DNA from: a virus
Strand: one strand, 5' to 3'
DNA length: 41,067 nt
IMG/VR virus record: IMGVR_UViG_3300007734_000686
Span: 1 to 41,067 of that record
Positions 1 through 39,837 of the stretch are shown here, one piece after another (position 1 is the stretch's first letter; each line of letters begins with the position of its first letter). The notes beneath the pieces were generated by a model that searched no databases, was not told the DNA's origin, and worked only from the letters and a program-made list of their open reading frames with translations. Made by a program: the position numbers and the translations under genes.

Positions 1-931
1 TAGCGTGTGCATCTGGGTTTTGAACCACTAGTGCATACTCTGCTGTGAGTAACCATTTTGTGCTGTCACCAGTTTTAGCTAGTTCTTCTTTAGCCATTGG
101 GCGTAATGAAGCTAAGCCAACATAACCAGGGTCAACAGCAAGAACAGCTTGGTCACGCATAAAGCGGTCAAGTTTAACTGTGTGGTTACCGAAGTCAGAA
201 ACGTAAACGTCTGCTGCGCCAGTAATTGTAGCTTGTGTTGTACCTTGTACATTGTTGAACTTAGTAGCAATACCACTGAAGCCTGAGAAGCGAGCTTTGT
301 TTGTAGCTGACATAAGGATTAATGATGGCTCGCCACCGTCTGTCCATGCCAATTGTAATGCTGATTTTAAGTCTGCTTCAATGAATGTTACTGAAGTACC
401 ATCTGTTGGAGCTGCAACTGTACCACCTGAGAAACCAGGAGTTGTACCTGCTGTAGAACCTGTAGCTAATACACGATTAACAATCCAAGACTCAATACCT
501 GCTGATGAACGAGCTGTAGCTGCGCCACCTGCTGATGATGCTTGGTTACGAACAATAGCATACTCCATGTCACGCTTAAGTTCTTTACCAGCTTTCATAA
601 GTTGGTAAGCAACTTCAGACTTACGACCATACTTACGTACAACGTCATAAGTGTTAGAAATTTGAACTGTTTTGCTTGAGATTTGAGTATAGTTACCTAA
701 TACTGTTGTAGCAGGTAATGTTGCGAATGATGAGTCATCACCTTCAATAGCACGGTTAGTAGCTGCTGCTGCTAATGCGTCTGTTTGCCATTGGTGATAA
801 GTTTGCGCAGCGCTCATACGCTTTGCGAGTGAAAGTAATGGTGTATCTTCTGGAGAAATATCAAAAATGATATCTTCAAATGATTCCGCTATACCTTTAC
901 CGGTATAACTATTGGTTGCTGATGCTGCCAT
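1..931 (-). CDS. Major capsid protein, SU10/DUF5309-like (3' end outside window)
   Basis: Major head protein. The reading frame opens at 931 and runs off the left edge after about 310 codons. The N-terminus has the pattern of the SU10 major capsid (DUF5309) family: a FEDIIFDISPEDTPLLSL stretch near residues 18-35, followed by YHQWQTD. The later EPSLILMSATNKARF and FGNHTVKLDRFM segments also fit that family. An AAGGA ribosome site lies about 10 bases before the ATG. It directly follows the scaffold gene in the transcript, the usual order. The intact frame here contrasts with the frameshifted copy at 37463..38414. In a circular map this gene would continue into 37485 and end at 37463. Confidence 0.88.
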   Translation of the reverse strand, partial: MAASATNSYTGKGIAESFEDIIFDISPEDTPLLSLAKRMSAAQTYHQWQTDALAAAATNRAIEGDDSSFATLPATTVLGNYTQISSKTVQISNTYDVVRKYGRKSEVAYQLMKAGKELKRDMEYAIVRNQASSAGGAATARSSAGIESWIVNRVLATGSTAGTTPGFSGGTVAAPTDGTSVTFIEADLKSALQLAWTDGGEPSLILMSATNKARFSGFSGIATKFNNVQGTTQATITGAADVYVSDFGNHTVKLDRFMRDQAVLAVDPGYVGLASLRPMAKEELAKTGDSTKWLLTAEYALVVQNPDAHA

Positions 932-952
932 GATGTTTTTTTCCTTTGTAAA

Positions 953-1954
953 TTAAAGCATGTTTTCTATAAGTTTTTGTGCTAAATCTGACTTACCTGT
1001 TTTACGTAATGAGTCACGTAATTGACGGTGGTTAGAATTAGCTTCCGCTTTGGAGTCTTTAGCACCAGGTTTCACTACTGGTTTAGCGCTAGACACCTTT
1101 TTCTTTACAATTGAGTCCTTTTGTTGTAGTTTGCGCCATTGCATAGCGTCATGCAAAACCTTCACGTGACGAGGGTCAACAATTGAGTTGAGTTCTGCAT
1201 CAGAAAAACCATAGTCTTTGCCAGTAGATAACAATGCTTGGTTAGTCTCAGGACTCCAATTTGGTATCTCTTTTGCTAAAACTTCTTTTCCTTTTGCTAT
1301 CTTCTCTGCCATCAATTGCGTTTGCTTCTGAACGACTTGTTGCTTTTTGGCTTCAAACTGTGAAACTAAATTACTACGTTCTTGCTGTAGTTGGTTATAT
1401 GTAAAGAAAAGTTTTTGCGCTTCTACAAAATCACTATCAGATAACTGCTGCCAATTCACGTTTGCATATTGGTTCAGTTGTTGGTCTAGTGCTGTAATTT
1501 TAGCTACATCTTCAATTAAGACGTTATTAAGTTGCATCTGTTCTTGAAAGGCTTGCTCTTGAGCTTTAATACTCTCAGCATAGGCTTCTAGCTCTTTACG
1601 TTGCTCTGCGACTTGTTGTGTCTTTTGTGTGTAGTCTAAGCCTTGTTGTGCTAATGCTACAACCTCTTCTAAAGGTTTTTCTACTTCTTCACCATTGACC
1701 TTTAGCTTTAAGATAGCAGGAACTTCATCTTCTTCAGACTGTTCTTCTTCTTCAGCTTGGTCATCTGGGTTATCATCTGTAGGTTCAGCGTCTGTATCTT
1801 CAGATGTTTCGTCTGTAGGTACTTCAGCTTCTTCTTGTGGTTCTTCTACTGGTTGCTCAGGAACATCTAGTTCTTTTACATCAGTTTGAATACTATCACC
1901 TAGCATAGCCTCTAATCGGCTTTGTGGTGACTGTTCTGCGACTTGGTCACTCAT
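953..1954 (-). CDS. Capsid scaffolding-type protein
   Basis: Probable scaffold for procapsid assembly, called from position (between portal and capsid) and composition. The first ~90 residues are extremely acidic (runs of E, D, P and T). Residues ~100-230 are Gln/Glu/Lys-rich and look like a long coiled coil. The C-terminus is basic and Ser/Lys-rich, as in scaffolds whose C-terminal tail docks on capsid. An upstream in-frame ATG at 1978 would add eight residues, but AAGGAAAA sits 5-9 bases before the ATG at 1954, so I use 1954 (333 aa). An intrinsic-terminator hairpin lies just upstream. No enzymatic domain is visible; the function is inferred from context. Confidence 0.75.
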   Translation of the reverse strand: MSDQVAEQSPQSRLEAMLGDSIQTDVKELDVPEQPVEEPQEEAEVPTDETSEDTDAEPTDDNPDDQAEEEEQSEEDEVPAILKLKVNGEEVEKPLEEVVALAQQGLDYTQKTQQVAEQRKELEAYAESIKAQEQAFQEQMQLNNVLIEDVAKITALDQQLNQYANVNWQQLSDSDFVEAQKLFFTYNQLQQERSNLVSQFEAKKQQVVQKQTQLMAEKIAKGKEVLAKEIPNWSPETNQALLSTGKDYGFSDAELNSIVDPRHVKVLHDAMQWRKLQQKDSIVKKKVSSAKPVVKPGAKDSKAEANSNHRQLRDSLRKTGKSDLAQKLIENML

Positions 1955-1979
1955 AATATTTTCCTTGAAATTAGACAAT

Positions 1980-2000
1980 AAAAAAACCTACCGAAGTAGG
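1980..2000 (-). terminator. Intrinsic terminator upstream of scaffold-capsid
   Basis: On the minus strand: stem CCTAC, loop TTCG, stem GTAGG, followed by seven T. It lies between the small gene ending at 2019 and the scaffold, inside the late operon. The other copy of this locus has a different stem at the same place (39459..39478) with the same T-run, which supports a conserved function. Confidence 0.75.
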
Positions 2001-2018
2001 ATTTAAGTGGGCTTGTCC

Positions 2019-2291
2019 TTACCCAAATATCTTAAACTTAGGTCTATCCGTTTGAATAGCTGCTAACTTACCTGTTTGCATAACGTCAGTAAGTTGCTTG
2101 TTAATTTGGTTTAGTAATTGTAGTGCTATAACTAATCTGTTATGAGTCTTTTCATCACCTAATGGACTGTTTGCCATACTAGCAATTAGACTATCTTTAA
2201 CTTTTTGTAATGCTTCTTGATAGATAGGGTTATCTAAAATAACTGCTGCTTGTTCACCACGCTTTACTTCTTCTAGTGTTTTATCCACCAT
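2019..2291 (-). CDS. Small protein between portal and scaffold, unknown
   Basis: 90 aa, not recognised. It opens MVDKTLEEVKRGEQAA and looks largely helical, with heptad-like leucines (LQLLNQINKQL) and a basic C-terminal end (DRPKFKIFG). It overlaps the end of the portal gene by 11 bases, so it is probably translationally coupled. Position suggests a head assembly or portal-associated role, but nothing in the sequence proves it. The right-hand copy (39567..39837) has lost two bases near the start codon. Conservation of the remaining protein in both copies supports it being a real gene. Confidence 0.72.
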   Translation of the reverse strand: MVDKTLEEVKRGEQAAVILDNPIYQEALQKVKDSLIASMANSPLGDEKTHNRLVIALQLLNQINKQLTDVMQTGKLAAIQTDRPKFKIFG

Positions 2292-4281
2292 AGTTTAATC
2301 CTGCCTGAGCTTTAATTTGTGCAATAGCTAAATCAGTTTCAGCTTTAAGTCTAGCTTTAAACTTCTCTAATTCAGCTTGTGCAATGATTTTTTCACGTTC
2401 AATAATTATATCATTCTTTGAACGTTCTTGCTCTTGCATCATTTGTGCTTGTGCTTTTTGTTGCTCAATAGCTAATTGACCTTGAACCATAATCTCTGCT
2501 TCAGATGGTTGTTTAGCACCTTCTTGTTCAGGTGTATTAGCTGGATTTACCCAGAACTCTTCAGGGTTTTTAAAGCCTGCGTTTTGTGTGAGTTTAGCTA
2601 ACGCATTATATATCTTCTCTGGTGAAGTAATACCAATTTGGATAGCTTCTTTTTGCATTTGTAGGATAGTAGTTAAGTGCATTAACTGTTGGTCTTTATT
2701 ACCTGCACCTAAACCTACAGAGATAGATAAGTCTTTACGAGCTTTCCATTCTCTTGGGTCTATTTCTACCCACTTGTTACGTAAACGGATAATATCAGGT
2801 TTAGTAAGTGTTGTTCTAACGAGATGATGCACTAACTTAAATAACTCTTTTACACCTGTTTCTGCAAATGTTCTAGCTACTAACTCTATACGTTGTTGAG
2901 CAGCAGACATAATTTGTGCTACGCCTGAAGCTGTTTTGTTAAGACTGTTAGAGTCTAAACCTTGGTTATATGCTGTGATACCTGTTCTCTTTTCTTTCAT
3001 AGAGTCCATGTATTCAACCATACCGAATGATGATGCTGGTAGTGGTGGATGTGATAAAGGCATAATGCCTGAACCTGGGTCACCTTCTACACGAACAATA
3101 CCACCTGGTCTTGACGTTAGCATATCGTCTAGGTTTACTCTGTCAGAGATAGCATAACGACCATTATTAGCTAGATACATGTTATCTAACTGACCACGAA
3201 TAAGTGTAGACTTGATAAGCTGGATGTCCATAGTCAAGTCAGCATAAGAACGACCAATATGTCTATGTGGCATTATCATTGGTGTAATACATGCAAATGG
3301 AACATACTCGCATGGTTCTTTATAGAGAATAGTATTGCCTAACACTACTACTCTATGTCTTTCACCATCTAACTTAATGTATGTGTCTTTAACAAGAGCT
3401 TCGTTAGACTCAATAGCTCTGTCATATTCTTCGTCATAAATATCACGTGCATTAGACTCTTCTTCAAAAGTATCACGAAGGTCTGACATGATAGATTTAA
3501 TGTATTCTAGTGGCTTATTAAATGTTTCTGCAATGTCAGCTAACTGCATGACTTCTCTATGCTGAACGAAACGTGCATCTTGTAAATTAGGACCATTAAC
3601 TTCTACAGATACCATCATGTTTTCAGGTGCTACGTTCTCAATGCAAATCTCAGTCTTTTTCTCTGTAACCTTGAGTTTAACATCATGAAGCATAGGTTGA
3701 ACAATAGTAGATGGGTCTTGTCCCATTGCCATAGCTTGTTGGATAAGTGCATCCATGTTCACAGATGGGTCAGGATAAGCTGTATGCTCTAATACTTCTG
3801 TCTTCTCATCTGACACTAACATTTGTAATTGTGCGTCTGTAAGACCTTTATACTCGTATTCTTCTACTTCTTCCTCTTCTTCGGCATATACTTTTACATA
3901 ACCGTTTTTAGAGAGTAATGCGTCTTTAAACCATACGTAGAATATCTTGAAGCCTTCGTTTTGCTCCATGACTACGTGGTTAATATAATCTGTTTCTTGT
4001 TCTGCTGCTTCTTGGTCTTCAGGACCTTTAGGGTCAAACTGAACAACCTTATCACCGGCTACAAATACTTTTAGGAGTTGTGGAAGTGCTGACTCAATCG
4101 TGTCTTGAACGTCATAAGATACAACTTGGCTACGACCTTCTTCTTCATTACCAAATGGTTGTCCTAAGTAGTAGTCAATCGCTTCTGCTCTATCATTAGA
4201 CAATGCACTATCATTTACACCATAGGCAATATTTTCTTCTGCCTCTATCTGTGCAATTATTTCCATGTCTTGTAGCTTCAT
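2281..4281 (-). CDS. Portal protein, P22-like
   Basis: 666 aa, the size of P22-type portals. It forms the dodecameric vertex channel for DNA packaging. Family-like features are the N-terminal YYLGQPFGNEEEGRSQVVSYD segment, then DTIESALPQLLKVF (residues ~60-75), and the later GRSYADLTMDIQ and GITAYNQGLDSNSLNKTASG segments. The C-terminal ~90 residues are a Gln/Glu/Lys-rich helix. The start overlaps the terminase stop (TAATG), and an AGAGGA ribosome site precedes it. The right copy (39827..41067) is collinear and also open, with scattered substitutions that mostly preserve the protein. Confidence 0.9.
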   Translation of the reverse strand: MKLQDMEIIAQIEAEENIAYGVNDSALSNDRAEAIDYYLGQPFGNEEEGRSQVVSYDVQDTIESALPQLLKVFVAGDKVVQFDPKGPEDQEAAEQETDYINHVVMEQNEGFKIFYVWFKDALLSKNGYVKVYAEEEEEVEEYEYKGLTDAQLQMLVSDEKTEVLEHTAYPDPSVNMDALIQQAMAMGQDPSTIVQPMLHDVKLKVTEKKTEICIENVAPENMMVSVEVNGPNLQDARFVQHREVMQLADIAETFNKPLEYIKSIMSDLRDTFEEESNARDIYDEEYDRAIESNEALVKDTYIKLDGERHRVVVLGNTILYKEPCEYVPFACITPMIMPHRHIGRSYADLTMDIQLIKSTLIRGQLDNMYLANNGRYAISDRVNLDDMLTSRPGGIVRVEGDPGSGIMPLSHPPLPASSFGMVEYMDSMKEKRTGITAYNQGLDSNSLNKTASGVAQIMSAAQQRIELVARTFAETGVKELFKLVHHLVRTTLTKPDIIRLRNKWVEIDPREWKARKDLSISVGLGAGNKDQQLMHLTTILQMQKEAIQIGITSPEKIYNALAKLTQNAGFKNPEEFWVNPANTPEQEGAKQPSEAEIMVQGQLAIEQQKAQAQMMQEQERSKNDIIIEREKIIAQAELEKFKARLKAETDLAIAQIKAQAGLNYGG

Positions 4282-5537
4282 TAAACAATTCCTCTGTTAT
4301 TGTATTGTATCTTCTCTTTAGACCATGACTCGTTCTTCATGTTTTCTATGGAAGTACATAAGTATCTAAATGCGTCTGCACCATGAGAGTATTCATCATG
4401 TAATGGCGCACCAGGTTCGTTAGTTGCAGAGTTTATACTTCTGCGATAATTCTTTAAACATTCAACAAGTCTATGTGCTGACTTGTCAAAGTATATACGG
4501 TGAAAGTTCATTCGTGCTAGTTTAATACCAGACTCTATATCTTGTTTAGGAACTATCCTTACGTCCCAACCAAGTTTACGCATAATATCTTCTGCTGATA
4601 TTCCATGCTTAAAGTCTTTAGACTGTCCGTCATGTGGTAAGAACATAGTTCCCCAATTGTATGACATATCTTTTAACTGTGCTGAATAACTATCTAATGT
4701 TCTGTGGTCATCTTCTATGTAACCAATCACACGTAAGTCTGATACACCTTTTTGACATAGGATAACTGACATGCTATCGTTCCAACCTAAGTCCATTACG
4801 ACATGAACCTTGAGCATTGGGTCATAAGGAACAGTAGTAATACGGTTATTCTCTTGTGCTTCACGTATTTCGTTAGCATAGATAGCACCATCTACAGCAG
4901 CTTTACATTCACCTTCCCAGATGTTTGCATAGTCAGGGTTAGTCTTTTCACTATGTTGACGTTCTATCTCTAGTACTTCAGGAAACCATGGGTTATCTGT
5001 ATAGTTTACCTTTACGACTTTAGCGTTCTCTGGTGGTTCTACGACAAACCTTTGGTATGTATCGTCTGTATCTATATTAGGGTTAAATGATACCCATATC
5101 TCTGAATTAGGTTTACGTATTGTAGGTATTAAAATATCCCACGACTTCTTGGATACTGTTTGTGCCTCTTCCACCCAGACAATATCACATCCTTCAAAAG
5201 ACTTAATGGACTCCACAGTATTAGTAGCCAACCCAGTAAAACTGAACGTGCTACCGTTAAGACCACGTATCTCTGCTTCCAATACTTCATAGAAAGCTCC
5301 TAGACCTAATGCTTGTATTTGGTCATTAAGTAATGTATGTACTGACTGCTTAATAGACTTTTGTATTTCACGTGCGCATAAGACACGTGTTGGCTCATTA
5401 GCTGCTTTTATAAGCAATGCTCTTGCCATAGACCATGACTTACCAGAACCTCTACCACCGTATGCTACTTTGTAACGGTGTGGTTCAAATAAGAAGTCTA
5501 GTTTACTCGGAAATTTTGCTATTGTCTGCGTTGACAA
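4281..5537 (-). CDS. terL: Terminase large subunit
   Basis: ATPase-nuclease motor that packages DNA into the prohead. Walker A GGRGSGKS is at residues 27-34 and Walker B IVWVEEA at about 119-125. The C-terminal RNase H-fold nuclease begins around VMDLGWND (Asp249), and an HGADAFRY segment lies near the end. The 418 aa length fits the PBSX/Terminase_3 group. The chosen start is a TTG, with AGGA upstream; the next ATG would cut into the ATPase domain. The start overlaps the small subunit gene by 35 bases and the stop overlaps the portal ATG, so the three genes are coupled. Confidence 0.93.
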   Translation of the reverse strand: MSTQTIAKFPSKLDFLFEPHRYKVAYGGRGSGKSWSMARALLIKAANEPTRVLCAREIQKSIKQSVHTLLNDQIQALGLGAFYEVLEAEIRGLNGSTFSFTGLATNTVESIKSFEGCDIVWVEEAQTVSKKSWDILIPTIRKPNSEIWVSFNPNIDTDDTYQRFVVEPPENAKVVKVNYTDNPWFPEVLEIERQHSEKTNPDYANIWEGECKAAVDGAIYANEIREAQENNRITTVPYDPMLKVHVVMDLGWNDSMSVILCQKGVSDLRVIGYIEDDHRTLDSYSAQLKDMSYNWGTMFLPHDGQSKDFKHGISAEDIMRKLGWDVRIVPKQDIESGIKLARMNFHRIYFDKSAHRLVECLKNYRRSINSATNEPGAPLHDEYSHGADAFRYLCTSIENMKNESWSKEKIQYNNRGIV

Positions 5538-12999: not shown

Positions 13000-13042
13000 A
13001 TTGAAAAAAAGTGTGTACATTTCAAAATAACAAGTGTAGAAT
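13000..13042 (+). promoter_or_regulatory. Second rightward early promoter
   Basis: -35 TGTACA (13014..13019), 17-base spacer, -10 TAGAAT (13037..13042). The block TTGAAAAAAAGTGT before it and CATTTCA after the -35 are shared with the promoter at 11329..11357. It drives the small-gene and recombination group; the first ATG is at 13073 with GGAGATTAT before it. Confidence 0.75.
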
Positions 13043-13072
13043 ATCTTTACGTTAATTAAATATGGAGATTAT

Positions 13073-13168
13073 ATGAAATTACGAACAATGATATTAAGCG
13101 CTGTGGCTTTCTGGCTTTATGTAGCTTTTTGTATATACATGATGGGTAAAGTGGAGGGTTTAATATGA
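13073..13168 (+). CDS. 31-residue membrane peptide, unknown
   Basis: MKLRT followed by one hydrophobic segment (MILSAVAFWLYVAFCIYMM) and a short polar tail. An excellent GGAGATTAT ribosome site and position right after a promoter support real translation. Four-base overlap with the next ATG. It could be an inhibitor or host-takeover peptide, but nothing proves this. Confidence 0.6.
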   Translation: MKLRTMILSAVAFWLYVAFCIYMMGKVEGLI

Positions 13169-13278
13169 GCGAACGCTGGTTAGACTATGACGAGTATTTA
13201 GATCAACAAGAATTTTGGCGTCAAAAAGAATTAGAAGAGCAACATCAACTTGAACAACAAGAGAAACATGATGGATAA
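13165..13278 (+). CDS. 37-residue acidic/Gln-rich peptide, unknown
   Basis: Starts MSERWLDYDEYLDQQEFWRQ and continues Glu/Gln-rich, probably one long helix. Overlaps the genes on both sides (ATGA at the front, 11 bases at the end), consistent with a coupled early mini-operon. No known family recognised. Confidence 0.58.
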   Translation: MSERWLDYDEYLDQQEFWRQKELEEQHQLEQQEKHDG

Positions 13279-13477
13279 CTGGGGATGGGATAAAGATAAA
13301 CACTATACGTGGTATAACCAATGGGACTTCAAAACACCTAGAACGTACCGCGAAAGATATGGTGTTGACTACAAACCAATGAAAGGTGAATTAGAAAAGC
13401 AACATGATTTTAAACAGAGTGTGTTATTATTTTTAATTGTAATATTATTTTTTGGAGTATTAGCATGGACGACTTAG
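13268..13477 (+). CDS. Small protein with C-terminal membrane anchor, unknown
   Basis: 69 aa. The N-terminal half is rich in Trp, Tyr and Asp (DNWGWDKDKHYTWYNQWD), and the end is a single hydrophobic anchor (SVLLFLIVILFFGVLAW). ATG at 13268 or one codon later. The tail-anchored layout would place the soluble part in the cytoplasm. Function unknown. Confidence 0.6.
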   Translation: MMDNWGWDKDKHYTWYNQWDFKTPRTYRERYGVDYKPMKGELEKQHDFKQSVLLFLIVILFFGVLAWTT

Positions 13478-13617
13478 ACGCGATAATTATGCAGATTCAA
13501 CTAGCTACTCAAGAGTTAAAAGATGATAATGACAGGTTTGAAAGACAACAACGAGCAATACAAAATTTAAGACAATCGGAGAATATAAATGAAATACACA
13601 GAACTACGCAAGATTAA
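13465..13617 (+). CDS. Small helical protein, unknown
   Basis: 50 aa, starting MDDLDAIIMQIQLATQELKD and continuing as a charged helix (DRFERQQRAIQNLRQ). Its start overlaps the preceding gene by 13 bases and its end overlaps the annealing-protein gene by 29 bases. TTTGGAG precedes the ATG. No family recognised. Confidence 0.55.
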   Translation: MDDLDAIIMQIQLATQELKDDNDRFERQQRAIQNLRQSENINEIHRTTQD

Positions 13618-14110
13618 TGTCAACGAACATATAGAAAAGAAAAATGGACTAAGTTATCTTTCATGGGCATGGGCCGTAGATACATTGCTGCAGCAAGACC
13701 CATCTGCTACATGGGACTATAAAGAACCAAAACAATTTGGCGATACTTTAATGGTGTTCTGTTCCGTTACAGCATTTGGCAAAACAATGACAGCACAACT
13801 ACCTGTACTTGACTTTAGAAATAAAGCTATTCCTAACCCTGATGCTATGGCAGTTAATACAGCTATGCAGCGTTGTTTAGCTAAAGCTATTGCATTACAT
13901 GGTATCGGTTTATATATCTACAGTGGTGAGGATATCCCTGAGTCTGAAAAAATTGAAGAAGTTATTTCTGACAAGGATATTGAACTTACTAAAGTTACAT
14001 TGTATACGGCAAATAACGAAGGTAAACTTAAAGAAGCATTTTTTAAACTTACGCCACAAATGCAAGAGAAAGTACGTGACTATGCTAACGAACTCAAGAA
14101 GTCTGCATGA
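13589..14110 (+). CDS. Single-strand annealing protein, DUF1071/Sak3-type
   Basis: 173 aa. The opening NVNEHIEKKNGLSYLSWAWA with DPSATWDY and the NTAMQRCLAKAIALHGIGLYIY segment match the DUF1071 (Sak3, Rad52-like) family of phage recombinases that anneal complementary single strands. It is followed with a four-base overlap by an exonuclease and then an SSB-like gene, a Red-type set for recombination-dependent replication or end joining. Confidence 0.83.
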   Translation: MKYTELRKINVNEHIEKKNGLSYLSWAWAVDTLLQQDPSATWDYKEPKQFGDTLMVFCSVTAFGKTMTAQLPVLDFRNKAIPNPDAMAVNTAMQRCLAKAIALHGIGLYIYSGEDIPESEKIEEVISDKDIELTKVTLYTANNEGKLKEAFFKLTPQMQEKVRDYANELKKSA

Positions 14111-14658
14111 GTCAACACTTACTAGATAATAGACGTCATAATGTTATTACTGCAAGTATCGCTTGGTCTGCAGTATATGAACGACAAAAATTATGGCGTC
14201 AAATGACTTTACGTGAACCGCCTTTTGATGGTAACGATATGACTGAGTATGGAAATACTCACGAACATATAGCATTATCAGCGTTAGAAAAAGAATTAAA
14301 TGACATTATAGAGTCTGGGAATAAATTTGTATTACATGATAGTTTACCTTTTGGTGCTAGTCCAGATGGGTACTATCAAGGTAATGTAGTTGAAATTAAA
14401 TGTCCATATAGTCAAGAAATTTATAAAGATATTCCTGAACGTTATTACTTTCAAATGCAAATGCAAATGGAAGTATGCAATATGCCGCAAGCGTATTTTT
14501 ATATATGGACACCAAATGAAACAAAATTACAAATAGTAGAAAGAAGTAAAACATGGCTTGAATGGTATACGCCATTAGCACTTGAGTTTATAAAATATGT
14601 TGAAGATGACATAGAACCTAAACGCTGGACTAAAAAACCAATTTTTAATAAGGAGTAA
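14107..14658 (+). CDS. YqaJ/lambda-exo-like 5'-3' exonuclease
   Basis: 183 aa PD-(D/E)XK nuclease. Conserved acidic and lysine residues are visible in ASPDGYY (Asp87) and VEIKCP (Glu96, Lys98), followed by the Gln-rich helix FQMQMQMEV (residues ~115-123) and a helix with Glu53 (NTHEHIAL). This order is standard for YqaJ-type viral recombinases. It resects DNA ends so that the annealing protein upstream can load. Confidence 0.86.
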   Translation: MSQHLLDNRRHNVITASIAWSAVYERQKLWRQMTLREPPFDGNDMTEYGNTHEHIALSALEKELNDIIESGNKFVLHDSLPFGASPDGYYQGNVVEIKCPYSQEIYKDIPERYYFQMQMQMEVCNMPQAYFYIWTPNETKLQIVERSKTWLEWYTPLALEFIKYVEDDIEPKRWTKKPIFNKE

Positions 14659-14661
14659 AGC

Positions 14662-14898
14662 ATGGCACAGTACGATAATACAAACACATTTACATTATTT
14701 GTTAATGATAAAGGTGATAACCCTAAACGTCCAGATTGGACTGGTAATATGAATGTTGATGGTATTGAATTTAGATTATCAGGTTGGATACGTGAAGGTG
14801 CAAAAGGTAAATTTGTATCTGGTTCAGTACAATTAAAAGAAAGTAAAAATACTGAATATAGCAAACCTGCTGCAGAAGGTGAGGACATGCCTTTTTAG
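14662..14898 (+). CDS. Small SSB-like protein with acidic tail
   Basis: 78 aa, predicted mostly beta (TFTLFVNDKG, RPDWTGNMNVDGIEFRLSGW, KFVSGSVQL). It ends EGEDMPF, very like the D-D-I-P-F tip with which bacterial SSB recruits partners. Similar short proteins accompany annealing protein/exonuclease pairs in phages, some annotated DUF736-like. A single-strand DNA-binding role is inferred from the tail and the neighbours. Its stop codon lies in a hairpin shared with the opposing pqqA end. Confidence 0.62.
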   Translation: MAQYDNTNTFTLFVNDKGDNPKRPDWTGNMNVDGIEFRLSGWIREGAKGKFVSGSVQLKESKNTEYSKPAAEGEDMPF

Positions 14899-14906
14899 GC
14901 ACGTCC
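14883..14906. terminator. Hairpin between converging SSB-like gene and pqqA
   Basis: GGACATGCCT, loop TTTT, AGGCACGTCC: a ten-base stem with one mismatch. No T-run follows on either strand, so it is not a classic intrinsic terminator, but it sits exactly where the two converging transcripts end. It may slow polymerase or protect 3' ends. Confidence 0.45.
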
Positions 14907-14917
14907 CCATAATACAA

Positions 14918-14989
14918 TTACTTGTTCATTACATACATTGTAACTTCGAAACCAAAACGCATTTCAGTAGCTGCTGGTGTTGTCCACAT
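14918..14989 (-). CDS. pqqA: PqqA, precursor peptide of pyrroloquinoline quinone
   Basis: 23 codons. The peptide begins MWTTPAATEM and ends RFGFEVTMYVMNK. It carries the PqqA signature R-x-G-x-E-V-T-x-Y with the Glu (15) and Tyr (19) that PqqE/PqqD link to build PQQ, and the MW-x-x-P start common in proteobacterial PqqA. From memory the sequence is closest to Methylophilaceae versions. AAAGGAG lies seven bases before the ATG and a TATAAT box about 50 bases upstream. It is antisense to its neighbours, like a moron. In methylotrophs PQQ is the cofactor of methanol dehydrogenase, so the phage could raise precursor supply in a host that has pqqBCDE. No other pqq gene is in the window. Confidence 0.9.
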   Translation of the reverse strand: MWTTPAATEMRFGFEVTMYVMNK

Positions 14990-15038
14990 AGTATTTCTCC
15001 TTTAGTGATGTATATGCGTAATTGCACAATACAGTAAG

Positions 15039-15044
15039 ATTATA
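15039..15044 (-). promoter_or_regulatory. Probable -10 box of the pqqA promoter
   Basis: Perfect TATAAT on the minus strand in an AT-rich gap, about 50 bases before the pqqA ATG. No convincing -35 at 16-18 bases. It suggests pqqA has its own transcription, independent of the plus-strand operon it interrupts. The rest of the gap 15045..15113 is AT-rich with no gene. Confidence 0.5.
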
Positions 15045-15113
15045 CAAAATATAAGGTTTGAAATATATTGTGAATATATTAAATAAATATAGGTAAAATG
15101 CTTAGGATAATTT

Positions 15114-15359
15114 ATGAAAAATATTGAATTTTGGACAAGGCAGTTAAATGGTGAAGTTGATTTAAGTCAATTAAATAAACCTACCCACGTACAGCAGCAA
15201 ATTGATATTGTAAAGGAATACAATTTAACATTGTTACCTGATGGCGGATGTAGATTTGTTATGACTAACTCACCAAGAGTTAAAACAGAATTACAAACAA
15301 ATGTAAGAGTTATATTTGATGCTGATTCATTTAAATTAAAAGAAGTGAGTATGTTATAG
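15114..15359 (+). CDS. Small protein, unknown
   Basis: 81 aa, not recognised. Starts MKNIEFWTRQLNGEVDLSQL, looks mixed alpha/beta, and contains LLPDGGCRFVMTNSPRV. AGGATAATTT precedes the ATG. The stop overlaps the GTG of the SleB-like hydrolase gene by one base, so the two are translated together. Confidence 0.6.
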   Translation: MKNIEFWTRQLNGEVDLSQLNKPTHVQQQIDIVKEYNLTLLPDGGCRFVMTNSPRVKTELQTNVRVIFDADSFKLKEVSML

Positions 15360-15733
15360 TGGATATTAATACATTAGATTTAAGTATGAGTTGCTATGCA
15401 CACGCTGCTTACCATGAAGCTTCTACACAGCAAGAAATTATTGCCGTGTTTAATGTGATACGTAATAGAATTAAAAGTAAAAATTATGGTAATGATTCTT
15501 GTGAAGTTGTATATGCTAGTGGTCAGTTTCAAGGCGTAACTGATGTTAACCATGATGAAGTAGATGCCAAAAGATATTTACAAATTAAATATGCGGCTAT
15601 AGATGCTATTTATTTTAATAAAATTAAAAACCCTATTGGCAACAAATTACATTTTTATGATGATAGTATTAATACCCCAATTGGTTGGAAAAATTGCAAT
15701 ATTAAAATAGGAAGGTTGGTGTTTTGTGACTAA
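15359..15733 (+). CDS. SleB/CwlJ-like cell wall hydrolase
   Basis: 124 aa. The pattern MSCYAHAAYHEAS (candidate catalytic Glu20), then IIAVFNVIRNRIKS, CEVVYASGQFQGV and a late HFYDD, follows the SleB Hydrolase_2 domain layout (CxxxxxYxEA...AVxxVxxNR...CxVVY...QF). It could act as the phage endolysin, yet it sits in the early operon and has no signal peptide, so timing is odd. GTG start overlapping the previous stop. Confidence 0.72.
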   Translation: MDINTLDLSMSCYAHAAYHEASTQQEIIAVFNVIRNRIKSKNYGNDSCEVVYASGQFQGVTDVNHDEVDAKRYLQIKYAAIDAIYFNKIKNPIGNKLHFYDDSINTPIGWKNCNIKIGRLVFCD

Positions 15734-15959
15734 ACCAGTAGCGTATTTGTTTGAAGAATTTGATGTTAGAACAGGTGATCTAATGAAATCTTATTTATGG
15801 TCGTTTCATCCAAATGAATTATCTTATTTAAGAGACCTTAAAGGTAAAACACATCATATTAAAATAACACCATTATTTCCTGGAGAACCTGTAGAGGAAT
15901 ATAAAGGCATGTCTAAATATGATAGTAAAAGACTAGTGGAGGCTAATAATGGACTCTAA
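15726..15959 (+). CDS. Small protein, unknown (GTG start)
   Basis: 77 aa. Starts with KPVAYLFEEFDVRTGDLMKS and contains HHIKITPLFPGEPVEEY, a KPVAY...ITPLF pattern seen in small phage proteins without known function. It overlaps the hydrolase gene by 8 bases and the next gene by 11. Confidence 0.6.
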   Translation: MTKPVAYLFEEFDVRTGDLMKSYLWSFHPNELSYLRDLKGKTHHIKITPLFPGEPVEEYKGMSKYDSKRLVEANNGL

Positions 15960-16155
15960 ATACGAAGGCAGTGGTTATCTACTTGTAGGAGTTATTATAG
16001 GTTCTTTAATTACATGGTCAATTATGTCATATAACAGCACCATGAATAAATACCACATGAATTTAAAATGTATTCAAGGTGAATTATACGAAGAAATTAA
16101 ACCTAATATCTTTGCAAAAAGTCACCTAGAATGTTTCGAGCAAACTAGACTATAG
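15949..16155 (+). CDS. Small membrane protein, unknown
   Basis: 68 aa. One membrane segment near the N-terminus (YLLVGVIIGSLITWSIM, residues ~10-26), then a polar domain with two Cys. The layout is compatible with an i-spanin-like subunit next to the hydrolase gene two places upstream, but no other spanin part was seen. Function is left open. Confidence 0.6.
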   Translation: MDSKYEGSGYLLVGVIIGSLITWSIMSYNSTMNKYHMNLKCIQGELYEEIKPNIFAKSHLECFEQTRL

Positions 16156-16163
16156 GAGAAATT

Positions 16164-16370
16164 ATGTATACTGAAATTGATGATTTAAAACATGCTGGCA
16201 TGATTAAAGAGTATTTAGAGAAAAACCCTGAAGCTACTAGAAAAGATTTAATATCTGTATTAAGATTTAATTATAGACGTTTAATTAAATTGGATAAATT
16301 GGGTGTTATTACATTACCTGCTGCAACACCACTTGGTAAAAGAAATAAACCTAAAACAGTTAGATTATAA
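16164..16370 (+). CDS. Small HTH-like DNA-binding protein
   Basis: 68 aa. IKEYLEKNPEATRKDLISVLRFNYRRLIKLDKLGVI has the spacing of a winged-helix or HTH recognition unit, followed by a basic Lys/Arg tail. It could be a phage regulator. AGGAGAAATT precedes the ATG. Confidence 0.6.
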   Translation: MYTEIDDLKHAGMIKEYLEKNPEATRKDLISVLRFNYRRLIKLDKLGVITLPAATPLGKRNKPKTVRL

Positions 16371-16430
16371 TACACTTTTTATCATTTATATGGTATTATA
16401 ATAATACTACATTTAACAAGGACTTATTTT

Positions 16431-16817
16431 ATGACAGAAATTAATAACATTTTAGATGAACGTGGTAACCGTTATGGCGACTTTGCATCTAATGCAACTA
16501 CTACACAACTTATTAAACAAGCTATAAACTTAGGTGATACAGCTGATAAGTTGGCATTCTATCAACGTGAGTCATTAGAAATGATAGCTCATAAGATAAG
16601 TCGTATTGTTAATGGTGATGCTAATTATATGGATTCATGGGTTGATATTGTAGGATATGCTCAACTTGTTATAGATAAATTACAACATGACAAAGATGAG
16701 ATACAACAGTTACTTAGTGATACAAATTATATTTTTCCAGAAAATGAAACAACAGAACAAAATGATGATATGCAAACTACGGCATTTTTAGAAAGGTTGG
16801 AAGAGCAAGATGACTAA
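16431..16817 (+). CDS. DUF6378-like protein
   Basis: 128 aa. ILDERGNRYGDFASNA at the start, MIAHKISRIVNGDANYMDSW and VDIVGYAQLVIDKL match the DUF6378 pattern found in many phages (RGxRYGxF...MIxxKIxRIxxGD...DxWxDIxGYA). It may be a MazG-related all-alpha fold; the role is unknown. A separate AT-rich gap with TATTATAAT-like sequence precedes it (16371..16430) and could hold a promoter. Confidence 0.78.
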   Translation: MTEINNILDERGNRYGDFASNATTTQLIKQAINLGDTADKLAFYQRESLEMIAHKISRIVNGDANYMDSWVDIVGYAQLVIDKLQHDKDEIQQLLSDTNYIFPENETTEQNDDMQTTAFLERLEEQDD

Positions 16818-16965
16818 AATATATTGGATATTTATTGTTGTAATGGCAGCATTAGCTATTTGGGGCACTGAAAAAGCTATTGGTCAGACTACAACTATAC
16901 TAGCACCAGATGGTTCGGTAACTATTTGTCAGGTAGGTTCTAACGGAATTGTTATTTGTGTCTAA
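16810..16965 (+). CDS. Small exported or membrane-anchored protein
   Basis: 51 aa. The N-terminal hydrophobic helix (IYWIFIVVMAALAIWG) is followed by a short external part with PDGSVTICQVGSNGIVICV, two Cys that could form a disulphide outside the cytoplasm. Small phage proteins with this PDG...C...C tail occur elsewhere without known function. It overlaps the DUF6378-like gene by eight bases. Confidence 0.62.
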   Translation: MTKIYWIFIVVMAALAIWGTEKAIGQTTTILAPDGSVTICQVGSNGIVICV

Positions 16966-16969
16966 CGGA

Positions 16970-17353
16970 ATGAGAAATGAGTTTGCAAGTCATACAGACT
17001 TTGGATTTTTAAGAGGTTTGTTTGATGAGAAACCAAATATTTTACCATCAAATGTAGACATGATATATGGCATGAATGGTCAGTTTTTATTAGCTGAGTG
17101 GAAACGTGAGAATGAAGAGATTTTATTAGGTCAACGTATATTATTAAAGTCACTTGCGCAGCAACCTAATTTTACTGTGTTAATTGTAAATGGTTATAGT
17201 GATAGTACAGGAACGCATGTTGATAGTTTTTATCAAGTCGCTAGTGATAAATTAATTTATATTGATAAGTCTGTTGATATGTTAAAAGAGTATATTAAGA
17301 CTTGGTTTACATTAGTTTTTAAAAAGGATAGTAAGGTATTGCTTAACCTTTAA
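16970..17353 (+). CDS. PD-(D/E)XK-like nuclease candidate
   Basis: About 127 aa from the ATG at 16970; a GTG at 16958 is also possible. ASHTDFGFLRGLFDEKPNIL leads to PSNVDMIYGMNG, then FLLAEWKRENEEILLGQRILLKSLA. The Asp (VDMIYG) and the E-W-K after a hydrophobic strand fit the D...ExK core of restriction-like nucleases and Holliday resolvases. Last plus-strand gene; its 3' end overlaps the converging minus gene by 42 bases. Confidence 0.62.
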   Translation: MRNEFASHTDFGFLRGLFDEKPNILPSNVDMIYGMNGQFLLAEWKRENEEILLGQRILLKSLAQQPNFTVLIVNGYSDSTGTHVDSFYQVASDKLIYIDKSVDMLKEYIKTWFTLVFKKDSKVLLNL

Positions 17354-17506
17354 AACCTCTTCTGGACGCTTTTCCTGCATCCTAGAGAGCCATTCTCTAC
17401 GATATTCTAAGTCTTTACTTAATAACCACTTAGCTTCGCAGTACATCCTATATTCAGGACTATAATTATCTACAACAGAACCATCCTTTAAAGTAACGTC
17501 AGTCAT
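17312..17506 (-). CDS. Small protein, DUF7696-like pattern
   Basis: 64 aa. DNYSPEYRMYCEAKWLL, followed by YRREWLSRMQEKRPEEVLKV, has the YSxEYRxxCEA...RRxWLxxxxxxRG pattern of small phage proteins sometimes filed as DUF7696. Role unknown. It is the last gene of the leftward unit, converging on the plus operon with a coding overlap. Confidence 0.65.
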   Translation of the reverse strand: MTDVTLKDGSVVDNYSPEYRMYCEAKWLLSKDLEYRREWLSRMQEKRPEEVLKVKQYLTILFKN

Positions 17507-17660
17507 CTAATTCTGGTACTTCTGAATATACACTATCACATGTAATTTCAATGTAAGTATCATCATCAAGTGTAATAATAAGTACAGATGGATCTATATA
17601 AGCTTCTGCTTCTACAATTGTCTTACCTATCATATGTTCACAGAGAGCGGTTATATTCAT
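17499..17660 (-). CDS. Small protein, unknown
   Basis: 53 aa from the ATG at 17660, which has AAGGAAAATT before it; the frame is open further upstream into the exonuclease gene but without a better start. MNITALCEHMIGKTIVEAEA and VLIITLDDDTYIEIT suggest a small beta-rich domain. It overlaps the following gene by eight bases. Confidence 0.62.
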   Translation of the reverse strand: MNITALCEHMIGKTIVEAEAYIDPSVLIITLDDDTYIEITCDSVYSEVPELDD

Positions 17661-17668
17661 AATTTTCC

Positions 17669-18406
17669 TTATATGCTGGTAACTAAGTCGTGGTTCACTT
17701 TTTCTGATTTCACTGACTTGCTCCATTTTCCACAGTCCTTACATTGGTAACGTTGATATTTACGAGAACTTGTAATAAAACTACCTTGTTTTGTAAGTCT
17801 TGTAGAATTACAATTAGGGCAAACAGTACTATTAGAAAATGAATTATGATTTGGATGGTTGCTTATCCACCCTTTAAATTTATCGTATATTTTTTCTAAG
17901 AGTATTACATCATTTTTGTTATACTCTTCCATACGTTTCCATGCTTTACGGTCATTATTCATAACCTTTAACCAGAGTTCATGACCCTCATGGTCTGTCT
18001 TTTTACCAAGACCTAAACGTTGCGCTACATAGTCTAGTTTATTAGATACAAATCTAAATTGACTTCTAGCAACTCTTAATAAGTCAATATGTTTTGCTGG
18101 GCTTGGTGGAGGCATACCTGACTGAAGAAATTCACCGTTTAACATTTTAATGTCAAACTGTAAACCATTGTAATGAACTATAGCATCTGCTTCATCCATT
18201 AACTTATGGATACCTTGCAGCATATGTTTTCTATTTGACTTATATACAGAGTCAAACATAATTTTTGATTCACCATACCATTTTGCTGCATAACAAAGTG
18301 TATATGATGATTCTAATAATTGGTTAAGTGCAATATTCTGTTGCCATATACCCCATACCGTTGCTAAATTTGGAGCACATTCAATGTCCAATAAAAGTAT
18401 TTTCAT
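17669..18406 (-). CDS. RNase H-fold 3'-5' exonuclease with zinc ribbon
   Basis: 245 aa. DEDD-type exonuclease residues: Asp7 and Glu9 in LLLDIECAP, Asp85 in HYNGLQFDIKML, and Asp166 in YNKNDVILL. The C-terminal part is a zinc ribbon (Cys196, Cys199, Cys222, Cys225) with a basic end. Such proteins appear in phages lacking a polymerase and may proofread, trim ends or degrade host DNA. It has its own upstream promoter-like sequence. Confidence 0.85.
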   Translation of the reverse strand: MKILLLDIECAPNLATVWGIWQQNIALNQLLESSYTLCYAAKWYGESKIMFDSVYKSNRKHMLQGIHKLMDEADAIVHYNGLQFDIKMLNGEFLQSGMPPPSPAKHIDLLRVARSQFRFVSNKLDYVAQRLGLGKKTDHEGHELWLKVMNNDRKAWKRMEEYNKNDVILLEKIYDKFKGWISNHPNHNSFSNSTVCPNCNSTRLTKQGSFITSSRKYQRYQCKDCGKWSKSVKSEKVNHDLVTSI

Positions 18407-27619: not shown

Positions 27620-28654
27620 TTATCTTGCGTTACTGTTTTTAAATGGATGCTCTGCAAATGCAGCAAATATTATAGCATTACCAGAACCATTAAGTTCTGT
27701 TCCTGTAGATGTTCTAATTTTGAAACCATTAGATAAGTAGTCTACAACAATGTTTGAGTCTGTATATTCAGCACCTGAAGTATTAGGGAATAACCATTGA
27801 GTCATTTTATTATTTGAGTCTCTTGCAGTATCCATAATTATCCAGTTTTGTGCTGTTGCTGTATTTTTAAACATAACAAATTTAGGTCTAAAACCACAAT
27901 ATACAAACGGACCATCACCATTTACACCATTACCTGTATAACTTCCAAATTTACTAAACCCTGCTATTTCTGACCAAGCATACGCTACATAAGTAGAGCC
28001 ACTACTATTTACAGAAACATCAACTCCAACAGAAAACACAGAACTTGTTGGTGATGTATTGTTAAAGTACCCTACATAAGTATCACCAGTATCTGCTTGG
28101 TTTAAAAAGTATGCTTTTGTATTTCCTATGGAAGCATGATAAGTTGTCCAAGAAGCTATTCCACTTCTGCGTTTAACAATAAACATTTTTGGAGCAACAC
28201 CCAAACCATGTCCTATAGTAGCACCAGCAGAACCATTACCTGTATAAGTCACCACACTAAACCCAGCAGTTGTGTTTACAGATACAGTAGATGTAATAGA
28301 GCCACTTGTGTTAGATGAACCAGCACCATTAGCTTTCCAGCACCAAGCTGTGTAAGTAGCACCACTTGTATTTAGTTTTGCTAAATTACCTATAGTAAAA
28401 CCACCATTAGTAAATGCAGTTAAACCTGTAGACTGTGTTGTTTCTGCTACTGTAGAGTTGGATACCAAGTCTTTAGTAGTTCCTCTTACAGCGTCATATA
28501 GAGCATGGTCTGTAGCACCACTTCTACCTTTTATCCAAACAAAGTCTGGAGTAAATGATACAGCGTTTGTGTCTACAACTGTTTTACTTGCAGCACCATC
28601 ACCTGTGTATGTTAATACACCAAAATAGTCACTACCTTTATTTATGGTCGGCAT
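27620..28654 (-). CDS. Tail fibre-type repeat protein
   Basis: 344 aa. Repeated WIKGRSG/IVKRRSG-like segments and TAWCWKANGAG, VVTYTGNGSAG and VAYAWSEIAG make at least two to three copies of a ~100-residue unit (FTPDFVWIKGRSG..., VAPKMFIVKRRSG..., FRPKFVMFKNT...). Similar proteins (DUF7483-like) occur as phage tail or receptor-binding proteins. Confidence 0.72.
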   Translation of the reverse strand: MPTINKGSDYFGVLTYTGDGAASKTVVDTNAVSFTPDFVWIKGRSGATDHALYDAVRGTTKDLVSNSTVAETTQSTGLTAFTNGGFTIGNLAKLNTSGATYTAWCWKANGAGSSNTSGSITSTVSVNTTAGFSVVTYTGNGSAGATIGHGLGVAPKMFIVKRRSGIASWTTYHASIGNTKAYFLNQADTGDTYVGYFNNTSPTSSVFSVGVDVSVNSSGSTYVAYAWSEIAGFSKFGSYTGNGVNGDGPFVYCGFRPKFVMFKNTATAQNWIIMDTARDSNNKMTQWLFPNTSGAEYTDSNIVVDYLSNGFKIRTSTGTELNGSGNAIIFAAFAEHPFKNSNAR

Positions 28655-37462: not shown

Positions 37463-38414
37463 CTAAGCACCTACGTTTTGAACTTTAGCGTGTGCATCTG
37501 GGTTTTGAACCACAAGTGCATACTCTGCAGTTAAGAGCCATTTTGTGCTGTCACCAGTTTTAGCTAATTCTTCTTTAGACATAGGTCTGAGAGAAGCTAA
37601 GCCAACATAGCCTGGGTCTACGCAAAGAACAGCTTGGTCACGCATGAAGCGGTCAAGTTTTACAGTGTGGTTACCGAAATCTGACACATATACGTCAGCT
37701 GCTCCTGTAATGGTTGCTTGTGTTGTACCTTGAACGTTGTTGAACTTAGTAGCAATACCAGCAAAGCCTGAGAAACGAGCTTTGTTTGTAGCTGACATAA
37801 GGATTAATGATGGCTCGCCACCGTCTGTCCATGCCAATTGTAATGCTGATTTTAAGTCTGCTTCAATAAATGTTACTGATGTACCATCTGTTGGAGTTGC
37901 AACTGTACCGCCTGAAACCAGGAGTTGTACCTGCTGTAGAACCTGTTGCTAATACACGATTAACAATCCAAGACTCAATACCTGCTGTTGAACGAGCTGT
38001 TGCTGCGCCACCTGCTGATGATGCTTGGTTACGAACAATTGCATACTCCATATCACGCTTAAGTTCTTTACCAGCTTTCATAAGTTGGTAAGCAACTTCA
38101 GACTTACGACCATATTTTTTAACTACGTCATAAGTGTTTGAAATTTGAACTGTTTTGCTTGAGATTTGAGTATAGTTACCTAATACTGTTGTTGCTGGTA
38201 ATGTTGCGAATGATGAGTCATCACCTTCAATAGCTCTGTTAGTACCTGCTGCTGCAAGTGCGTCTGTTTGCCATTGATGGTATGTTTGACCTGCTGACAT
38301 TCTTTTTGCTAATGAAAGCAATGGTGTATCTTCTGGAGAAATATCAAAAATGATATCTTCAAATGATTCCGCTATACCTTTACCGGTATAACTATTGGTT
38401 GCTGATGCTGCCAT
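37463..38414 (-). pseudogene. Major capsid protein, right copy, frameshifted
   Basis: Same protein as 1..931, almost identical at the N-terminus, but two bases are missing around 37914 (CTGAGAAAC in the other copy reads CTGAAAC). The frame breaks after about residue 166. The 3' half continues in another frame and ends with a TAG at 37463, so this region also shows the true C-terminus (...VQNVGA). It is likely an assembly or base-calling artefact or a strain variant, because all other parts are conserved. Confidence 0.85.
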
Positions 38415-38435
38415 GTTATCTTTTCCTTTTGTAAA

Positions 38436-39433
38436 TTAAAGCATGTTTTCTATAAGTTTTGCTGCCATATCTGACTTACCTGTTTTACGTAATTGGTCAC
38501 GTAATTGACGGTGAGCAGAATTAGCTTCCGCTTTTGTATCTTTAGCTCCAGGCTTCACTACTGGTTTTGCGCTTGATACCTTTTTCTTTACAATTGAATC
38601 CTTTTGTTGAAGTTTGCGCCATTGCATAGCGTCATGCAACACCTTCACGTGACGAGGGTCAACAATTGAATTGAGTTCTGCATCTGTAAAGCCATAATCC
38701 TTGCCAGTAGATAACAATGCTTGGTTAGTCTCAGGACTCCAATTTGGTATCTCTTTTGCTAGAATCTCTTTACCTTTAGCTATCTTCTCAGCCATCAATT
38801 GCGTTTGCTTATTAACGACTTCTTGCTTTTTGGCTTCAAACTGTGAAACGAGTTGACTACGTTCTTGCTGTAGTTGGTTATATGTAAAGAAAAGTTTTTG
38901 CGCTTCTACAAAATCACTATCAGATAACTGTTGCCAATTCACGTTTGCATATTGGTTCAGTTGTTGGTCTAGTGCTGTAATTTTAGCTACATCTTCAATT
39001 AACACGTTATTAAGTTGCATCTGTTCTTGAAAGGCTTGCTCTTGAGCTTTAATACTCTCAGCATAGGCTTCTAGCTCTTTACGTTGCTCTGCAACTTGTT
39101 GTGTCTTTTGTGTGTAGTCTAAGCCTTGTTGTGCTAATGCTACAACCTCTTCTAAAGGTTTTTCTACTTCTTCACCATTGACCTTTAACTTTAAGATAGC
39201 AGGAACTTCATCTTCTTCAGACTGTTCTTCTTCTTCAACTTGGTCTTCTGATCTTCTGTAGGTTCAGCGTCTGTATCTTCAGATGTTTCGTCTGTAGGTA
39301 CTTCAGCTTCTTCTTGTGGTTCTTCTACTGGTTGCTCAGGAACATCTAGTTCTTTTACATCAGTTTGAATACTATCACCTAGCATAGCCTCTAATCGGCT
39401 TTGTGGTGACTGTTCTGCGACTTGGTCACTCAT
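38436..39433 (-). pseudogene. Scaffold protein, right copy, frameshifted
   Basis: Matches 953..1954 throughout. Four bases are missing near 39250 (the other copy reads TCATCTGGGTTATCATC, here TCTTCTGATCTTC), so the protein leaves frame after the acidic N-terminal ~60 residues. The remaining frame (from about 39240 down to 38436) is intact and its translation follows the left copy with a few substitutions. Start and ribosome site are as in the left copy. Confidence 0.85.
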
Positions 39434-39458
39434 AATATTTTCCTTGAAATTAGACAAT

Positions 39459-39478
39459 AAAAAAGACTCATAAGAGTC
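39459..39478 (-). terminator. Intrinsic terminator upstream of right scaffold copy
   Basis: On the minus strand: stem GACTC, loop TTAT, stem GAGTC, then six T. Same place as 1980..2000 but both stem arms differ in a way that keeps pairing. Confidence 0.72.
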
Positions 39479-39566
39479 CTAAGTAGGCTTGTCCTTACCT
39501 AAATTCTTTTGCATGTCAAAACGGTTTTCACTCAAAATACTGACAAATTGCTTTTGAATGAAACAC

Positions 39567-39837
39567 TTACCCAAATATTTTAAATTTAGGTCTGTCCGTT
39601 TGAATAGCTGCGAGCTTACCTGTTTGCATAACGTCAGTAAGTTGCTTGTTAATTTGGTTTAGTAATTGTAATGCGATAACTAATTTGTTATGGGTCTTTT
39701 CGTCACCTAGTGGGCTGTTAGCCATAGTAGATACAATGTTCTCTTTTACCTTAGCAATAGCTTCTTGGTAAATAGGGTTATCTAATATGACTGCTGCTTG
39801 TTCACCACGTTTTACTTCTTCTAAACTTATCCACCAT
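39567..39837 (-). pseudogene. Small protein between portal and scaffold, right copy, frameshifted
   Basis: Same protein as 2019..2291, but two bases are missing after the fourth codon (ATG GTG GAT AA...), so translation from the usual ATG ends after 11 codons. The body from about codon 6 on is intact in the shifted frame. Likely the same kind of end-of-contig error or strain variation as in the neighbouring scaffold and capsid copies. Confidence 0.78.

Follow-up and report, generated by a model that had tools for sequence, protein, structure and literature searches.

What is encoded by a very short frame that runs against the direction of a phage operon, and why would a virus carry it? The window analysed here is a whole IMG/VR record of 41,067 bases, in which a sequence-only reading had picked out a 23-codon minus-strand frame as pqqA, the gene of the PQQ precursor peptide. 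The frame and the phage genes to which it was related are as follows.

14918..14989 (−): pqqA, 23-aa PQQ precursor peptide MWTTPAATEMRFGFEVTMYVMNK; profile matches, synteny, pN/pS about 0.055
14662..14898 (+): SSB-like gene, converging neighbour of pqqA; PHROG 18154, E 4.7e-15
14107..14658 (+): RecE/YqaJ-like exonuclease, synteny anchor; PHROG 434, E 4e-19; 80 relatives
13589..14110 (+): Sak-like ssDNA annealing protein; PHROG 659, E 1.5e-44
4281..5537 (−): terminase large subunit (TerL), viral hallmark and second anchor; PHROG 3717, E 7.6e-67
2281..4281 (−): portal protein, viral hallmark; PHROG 1216, E 1.9e-147

Identity of the gene and its phage context

The frame at 14918-14989 consists of 72 bases on the minus strand (23 codons, ATG start, TAA stop), and its coordinates are exactly those first proposed. 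The peptide MWTTPAATEMRFGFEVTMYVMNK was matched by the Pfam PqqA family PF08042 (E 3e-10; 40.3 bits, cut-off 21.1; 19 of 19 profile positions) and by the NCBIfam equivalog TIGR02107 (38.8 bits, cut-off 20), and the spacing of E-V-T-x-Y is kept, with Glu15 and Tyr19 as the residues that become PQQ. The full PqqA signature described from the letters is thus confirmed by two scores above cut-off, and the possibility that no PqqA profile would match is excluded. A profile search of the whole record found one PqqA copy, and the same profile gave 0 matches in 14 control genomes. There was no Rfam match at 13000-18000, which leaves a reading of the frame as an RNA feature unsupported, and no tRNA was found in the window. 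No PHROG family matches the peptide, so that PHROG-based annotation cannot find pqqA. The analysis supports the conclusion that 14918-14989 is a genuine phage pqqA, kept by selection and missed by annotation.

The surroundings are, as had been claimed, phage recombination and small genes, all on the plus strand: the Sak-like, exonuclease and SSB genes lie upstream on that strand, and beyond pqqA come an endolysin-like gene and small ORFs. MazG-like, thymidylate synthase and dCMP deaminase genes are further phage neighbours, and a scaffold gene lies elsewhere in the window. When other pqq and methanol genes were searched for, none besides pqqA was found in the window, and neither PqqE nor a PQQ alcohol dehydrogenase was found in the window or in the isolates described below. 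The two ends of the window (1-3516 and 37486-41062, portal and scaffold) repeat each other at 89-93% identity, so that the contig seems to overrun one genome length of ~37.5 kb into a related strain; pqqA is located outside this end repeat.

Synteny of pqqA in related viruses

Contigs in IMG/VR can be chimeric and the ends of this window are strain-mixed, and it might be supposed that host DNA was wrongly joined to a phage contig. The test of synteny was anchored on the neighbouring exonuclease rather than on pqqA itself and comprised 80 IMG/VR loci. It can be seen that pqqA lies downstream of the exonuclease and on the opposite strand in 76 of them; in the remaining four (L279, L286, L295 and L298) the contig breaks off no more than about 360 bases from the exonuclease. 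Of the 47 loci that were measured, 46 have 246-358 bases between the exonuclease and pqqA. With TerL as anchor, pqqA was present in 10 of 12 long records, and the other two gave no Sak, exonuclease or SSB match, which indicates that the region is missing or too diverged to be seen. A chance match is ruled out, since 76 relatives have the gene in this very position. Because these syntenic loci and phages grown in culture carry pqqA, the joining of host DNA, which the sequence-only reading had itself named as a danger, is refuted and keeps a vanishingly small probability: the pqqA of the window is not host contamination but part of a real virus genome.

pqqA in cultured phages

The peptide was searched by tblastn against 50,697 phage records. 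Matches were obtained in nine cultured methylophage records, namely P19250A (100%), Venkman, MEP301, MEP401, MEP402 and four Melnitz isolates; in P19250A the gene for this identical peptide lies at 28085-28153. MEP431-434, HIM624-A and Venkman EXVC038S, which are named in the NCBI taxonomy, are not among the matches, being either without pqqA or outside the collection. The non-isolate matches were one metagenomic phage of the same synteny and two contigs filed as 'Acinetobacter phage MD-2021a'. One of these two (CAKLQF020000010.1) was read and rejected as phage evidence; it appears to be bacterial chromosome, since ppk, fur, entB and pqqBCDE are present. The cultured relatives of the window lineage infect methylotrophic Methylophilaceae/OM43, and a host of this kind is predicted for the window phage.

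The expectation that gene callers would miss so short a gene was borne out, as it was never annotated as PqqA in the cultured-phage records read. In P19250A, MEP301, Venkman, MEP401 and MEP402 no annotated feature lies over pqqA, and in Melnitz and the Manatee Spring phage a hypothetical protein is annotated over it on the opposite strand. In Melnitz this wrong-strand hypothetical protein (76100-76205) adjoins a tRNA gene.

Carriage in the MEP401-like lineage is patchy, with pqqA in 2 of 10 records. One complete-looking relative of MEP401, G149 (L538-L540, 42,780 bp), has matching ends and keeps the gp67 neighbour, and pqqA is absent from it; G149 and MEP401 thus form a natural pair for the presence and absence of pqqA.

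Selection on the peptide

A degenerate DNA pattern search fixes the residues GFEVTMY by construction, and selection was therefore measured only on the exonuclease-anchored set. Across 37 distinct pqqA alleles of this set pS was 0.39 and pN 0.021, and residues 9-23, including Glu15 and Tyr19, were invariant. PqqA averages 97% identity to the peptide of the window even where the exonuclease drops to 60-69%. Variation falls on positions 4, 6 and 7 in phage and host PqqA alike, a comparison in which residues 13-19 of the host peptide are fixed by the search pattern. These results indicate that pqqA is maintained by strong purifying selection on its product.

The same data bear on whether the stretch is an unexpressed feature at the DNA level, i.e. 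a site for integration or a seed for recombination that it has in common with host pqqA. Phage attachment sites can mimic host genes, and one phage pqqA is identical in DNA to one host pqqA. Yet synonymous sites differ by 39% while the peptide is kept, a combination that points to selection on the peptide and against a role of the DNA. Moreover, tyrosine integrase (PF00589) was absent from 23 of 23 records in a profile search that covers the tyrosine type and was positive in 14 of 14 controls; on visual inspection the sequences up- and downstream of pqqA seem unrelated between host and phage; and pqqA has a ribosome-binding site and −10 box of its own. The attachment-site mimic, for which conserved DNA and an integrase were looked for, was rejected on the synonymous difference and the lack of PF00589, and a DNA-level role as a whole is very unlikely. 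Nearest-neighbour distances of the 72-base DNA did not reveal a donor.

Expression signals

The signals around the gene are the following.

14997..15003 (−): ribosome-binding site AAAGGAG, ending 7 nt before the pqqA ATG
15039..15044 (−): −10 promoter element TATAAT; ATAAT conserved among relatives
14880..14909 (−): hairpin directly 3' of pqqA, probably a terminator where the two genes converge; extends into the final ssb codons

The AAAGGAG site that had been noticed is present (CTCCTTT on the plus strand), and all 72 syntenic loci whose upstream sequence is long enough have an RBS-like motif before pqqA. ATAAT is invariant in 34 diverse aligned loci and is found at −75 to −25 of pqqA in 72 of 72. 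No good −35 hexamer was found as a partner for the −10 box, and a generic promoter scan did not list TATAAT. Of 42 distinct relatives, 39 were predicted to form a stable hairpin after the stop codon, with a median z of −5.3 relative to mononucleotide shuffles; coding constraint contributes to its conservation because the hairpin partly overlaps the end of the SSB gene. A few relatives show a classic stem followed by a T-run, and the hairpin of the window was not called terminator-like by a generic terminator scan. With its RBS, −10 box and 3' hairpin, pqqA looks like an independent transcription unit that converges on the recombination genes.

Breadth among environmental viruses

pqqA was found in at least 160 viral contigs, 46 of them of methanotroph type; these counts are of contigs, not of independent viruses, and for most the viral status rests on IMG/VR. 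The GFEVTMY DNA pattern alone was found in at least 120 viral contigs, with PqqA encoded by each match listed. The 46 contigs of the methanotroph-type pattern all encode PqqA, most with purine-rich upstream sequences. A Pseudomonas/Acinetobacter-type pattern gave only two Methylophilaceae-like variants, and Alphaproteobacterial (Methylobacterium)-type PqqA was found in only two viral contigs from the same sample, L326 (G017, 265,895 bp) and L327. At these two loci four neighbours had no Pfam match. In addition, one viral contig of 52,362 bp (G012, L294) carries two copies of pqqA.

The 207 pqqA loci taken from the pattern matches, the exonuclease set and the isolates fall into 29 local contexts, with isolates in four; in some contexts pqqA adjoins capsid or terminase genes. 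Methanotroph-type pqqA occurs together with pmoC on two large contigs, G160 (372,173 bp, with a terminase) and G161 (171,592 bp), at loci L579 and L567. A further contig, G007 (L361, IMGVR_UViG_3300025120_009955:26001-45900), carries pqqA together with a XoxF-type methanol dehydrogenase, whose best match is the lanthanide XoxF 6oc5 and in which the D-Y-D motif is present. On G007 phage-type RNR, GroEL and curli families were found, and no capsid gene was seen. The same contig also carries a formate-dehydrogenase-like protein, SoxYZ, curli genes and adenylate cyclase.

Host PqqA and the proposed function of the phage gene

A search of the peptide in Methylophilaceae and viral metagenomes, and by tblastn in phages, had been proposed at the outset; run here, it returned identical host peptides as well as the phage matches. 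MWTTPAATEMRFGFEVTMYVMNK is identical to PqqA of Methylotenera, OM43 and many other Methylophilaceae, and all 120 genomes that were sampled from the family to which an OM43-type isolate belongs have pqqA, in 1-12 copies. It was reported previously that Methylophilaceae have 3-12 pqqA genes, with the remaining pqq genes usually present as one set, and that they possess pqqBCDE and xoxF (PMC4109929). In a PQQ producer strain five pqqA copies are unequally expressed, and cross-linking of PqqA by PqqE/PqqD is cited in the same work (PMC9851590). Since hosts have many pqqA genes beside one set of the others, extra pqqA alone is a change of dose that they use themselves. For the same reason, i.e. the several copies already in the host, a phage pqqA may not be needed.

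The best-supported reading is that phage pqqA would feed the PqqBCDE enzymes of the host. Host RNA polymerase would transcribe the gene during infection; host PqqD/PqqE would join Glu15 to Tyr19 by a cross-link, after which PQQ would be completed by proteases together with PqqB and PqqC. One PqqA is consumed per PQQ, PqqB to PqqE being enzymes. After shut-off of host expression PqqA may therefore become the limiting part and run short first, while the catalytic PqqB-E can persist. The added PQQ would keep XoxF/MxaF methanol dehydrogenase loaded, and methanol oxidation could thereby continue through a long latent period, which is 17-20 h in MEP401 (PMC10580990).

In favour of this supply are the identity of PqqA, the selection, the signals, the match to host peptides and the breadth within the lineage; transcription, processing, a gain of PQQ and a benefit are predicted from them. 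Against it stand the patchy carriage in the MEP401-like lineage, the lack of any other pqq or methanol gene in the window and the lack of a clear −35. As judged from sequence, phage pqqA is quite likely a functional auxiliary metabolic gene that would supply a substrate of the pathway rather than an enzyme, and viruses probably keep methanol oxidation running by supplying the raw material of a cofactor pathway.

Two other uses of the peptide were considered. PQQ has uses besides methanol dehydrogenase, and the peptide may be made and its PQQ serve another quinoprotein, protection from oxidative damage or neighbouring cells. No PQQ alcohol dehydrogenase was found in 23 of 24 pqqA-bearing records searched, which leaves small phages without a direct tie to methanol dehydrogenase. 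On the other hand, among the peptide types that were scanned, viruses carry almost none except methylotroph- and methanotroph-type PqqA, and pqqA is paired with XoxF on one contig and with pmoC on two; such a use is unlikely. Alternatively, the peptide might act as a decoy, tying up PqqD/PqqE or a regulator so that PQQ synthesis is lowered or redirected, as phages often inhibit host functions through tiny proteins and a 23-aa substrate analogue could compete for PqqD/PqqE. This seems improbable for a peptide whose Glu15, Tyr19 and entire EVTMY motif never vary in the unbiased set of loci; being often identical to the host's as well, phage PqqA would be a substrate, not a decoy.

Returning to the supply of PqqA, we lean slightly towards a wider claim, that pqqA is near-universal but hidden in phages of one-carbon-eating bacteria, and that unrelated lineages (at least four isolate contexts), with Methylophilaceae and methanotroph-type hosts, would have taken it up separately because PqqA supply limits methanol oxidation during infection. 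If so, phages would control a cofactor pathway through nothing more than the supply of the peptide that it consumes. Large carbon fluxes are governed by methanol and methane oxidizers, whose phages are abundant. Should the 72-bp pqqA be present in most of these phages, then a gene that ranks among the commonest viral metabolic genes has escaped the surveys. The phage-host pairs already in culture permit a direct test of whether the supply of PQQ precursor limits methylotrophy.

Comparison with known systems

It had been left in doubt whether viral pqqA was already reported. It was, once: the Lake Baikal viral contig VP_266 carries PqqA, for which a boost of PQQ for methanol dehydrogenase in Methylophilaceae was proposed, and viral methanol dehydrogenase was described for VP_139/VP_266 (PMC7678222). 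Viral PqqA as such, with the same hypothesis, is thus already known. VP_266 is one metagenomic T4-like contig that also has the dehydrogenase, whereas pqqA of the window stands alone in a phage of ~37 kb. The same paper states that P19250A is without PqqA or methanol dehydrogenase genes (PMC7678222); for pqqA this is wrong, as shown by the identical peptide in that phage. PqqA is also listed among viral genes in PMC13188868. Phage pqqA is unmentioned in the main texts on cultured OM43 phages and pmoC phages: in PMC9004378 PQQ appears only as a supplement to the medium, and PQQ is unmentioned in the main text of PMC7674155. The near-universality in the lineage, the cultured phages including P19250A and the methanotroph set appear to be new, in a literature scope without preprints, supplements and most subscription journals.

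Host Methylophilaceae pqqA (PF08042/TIGR02107) shares with the phage gene an identical 23-aa peptide, with its R-x-G-x-E-V-T-x-Y core, and an RBS of its own, the hosts carrying several copies. Unlike the host's, the phage gene adjoins recombination genes, has no pqqE in its record and lies in different flanking DNA. The pmoC gene of large methanotroph phages is likewise a phage gene that feeds one-carbon oxidation, but pmoC encodes an enzyme subunit and PqqA is a consumed substrate (PMC7674155). By analogy with cyanophage psbA, which encodes a turned-over reaction-centre protein, the phage may supply only the fastest-consumed component of a host energy system; unlike psbA, phage PqqA is the peptide precursor of a cofactor and is known here from its sequence.
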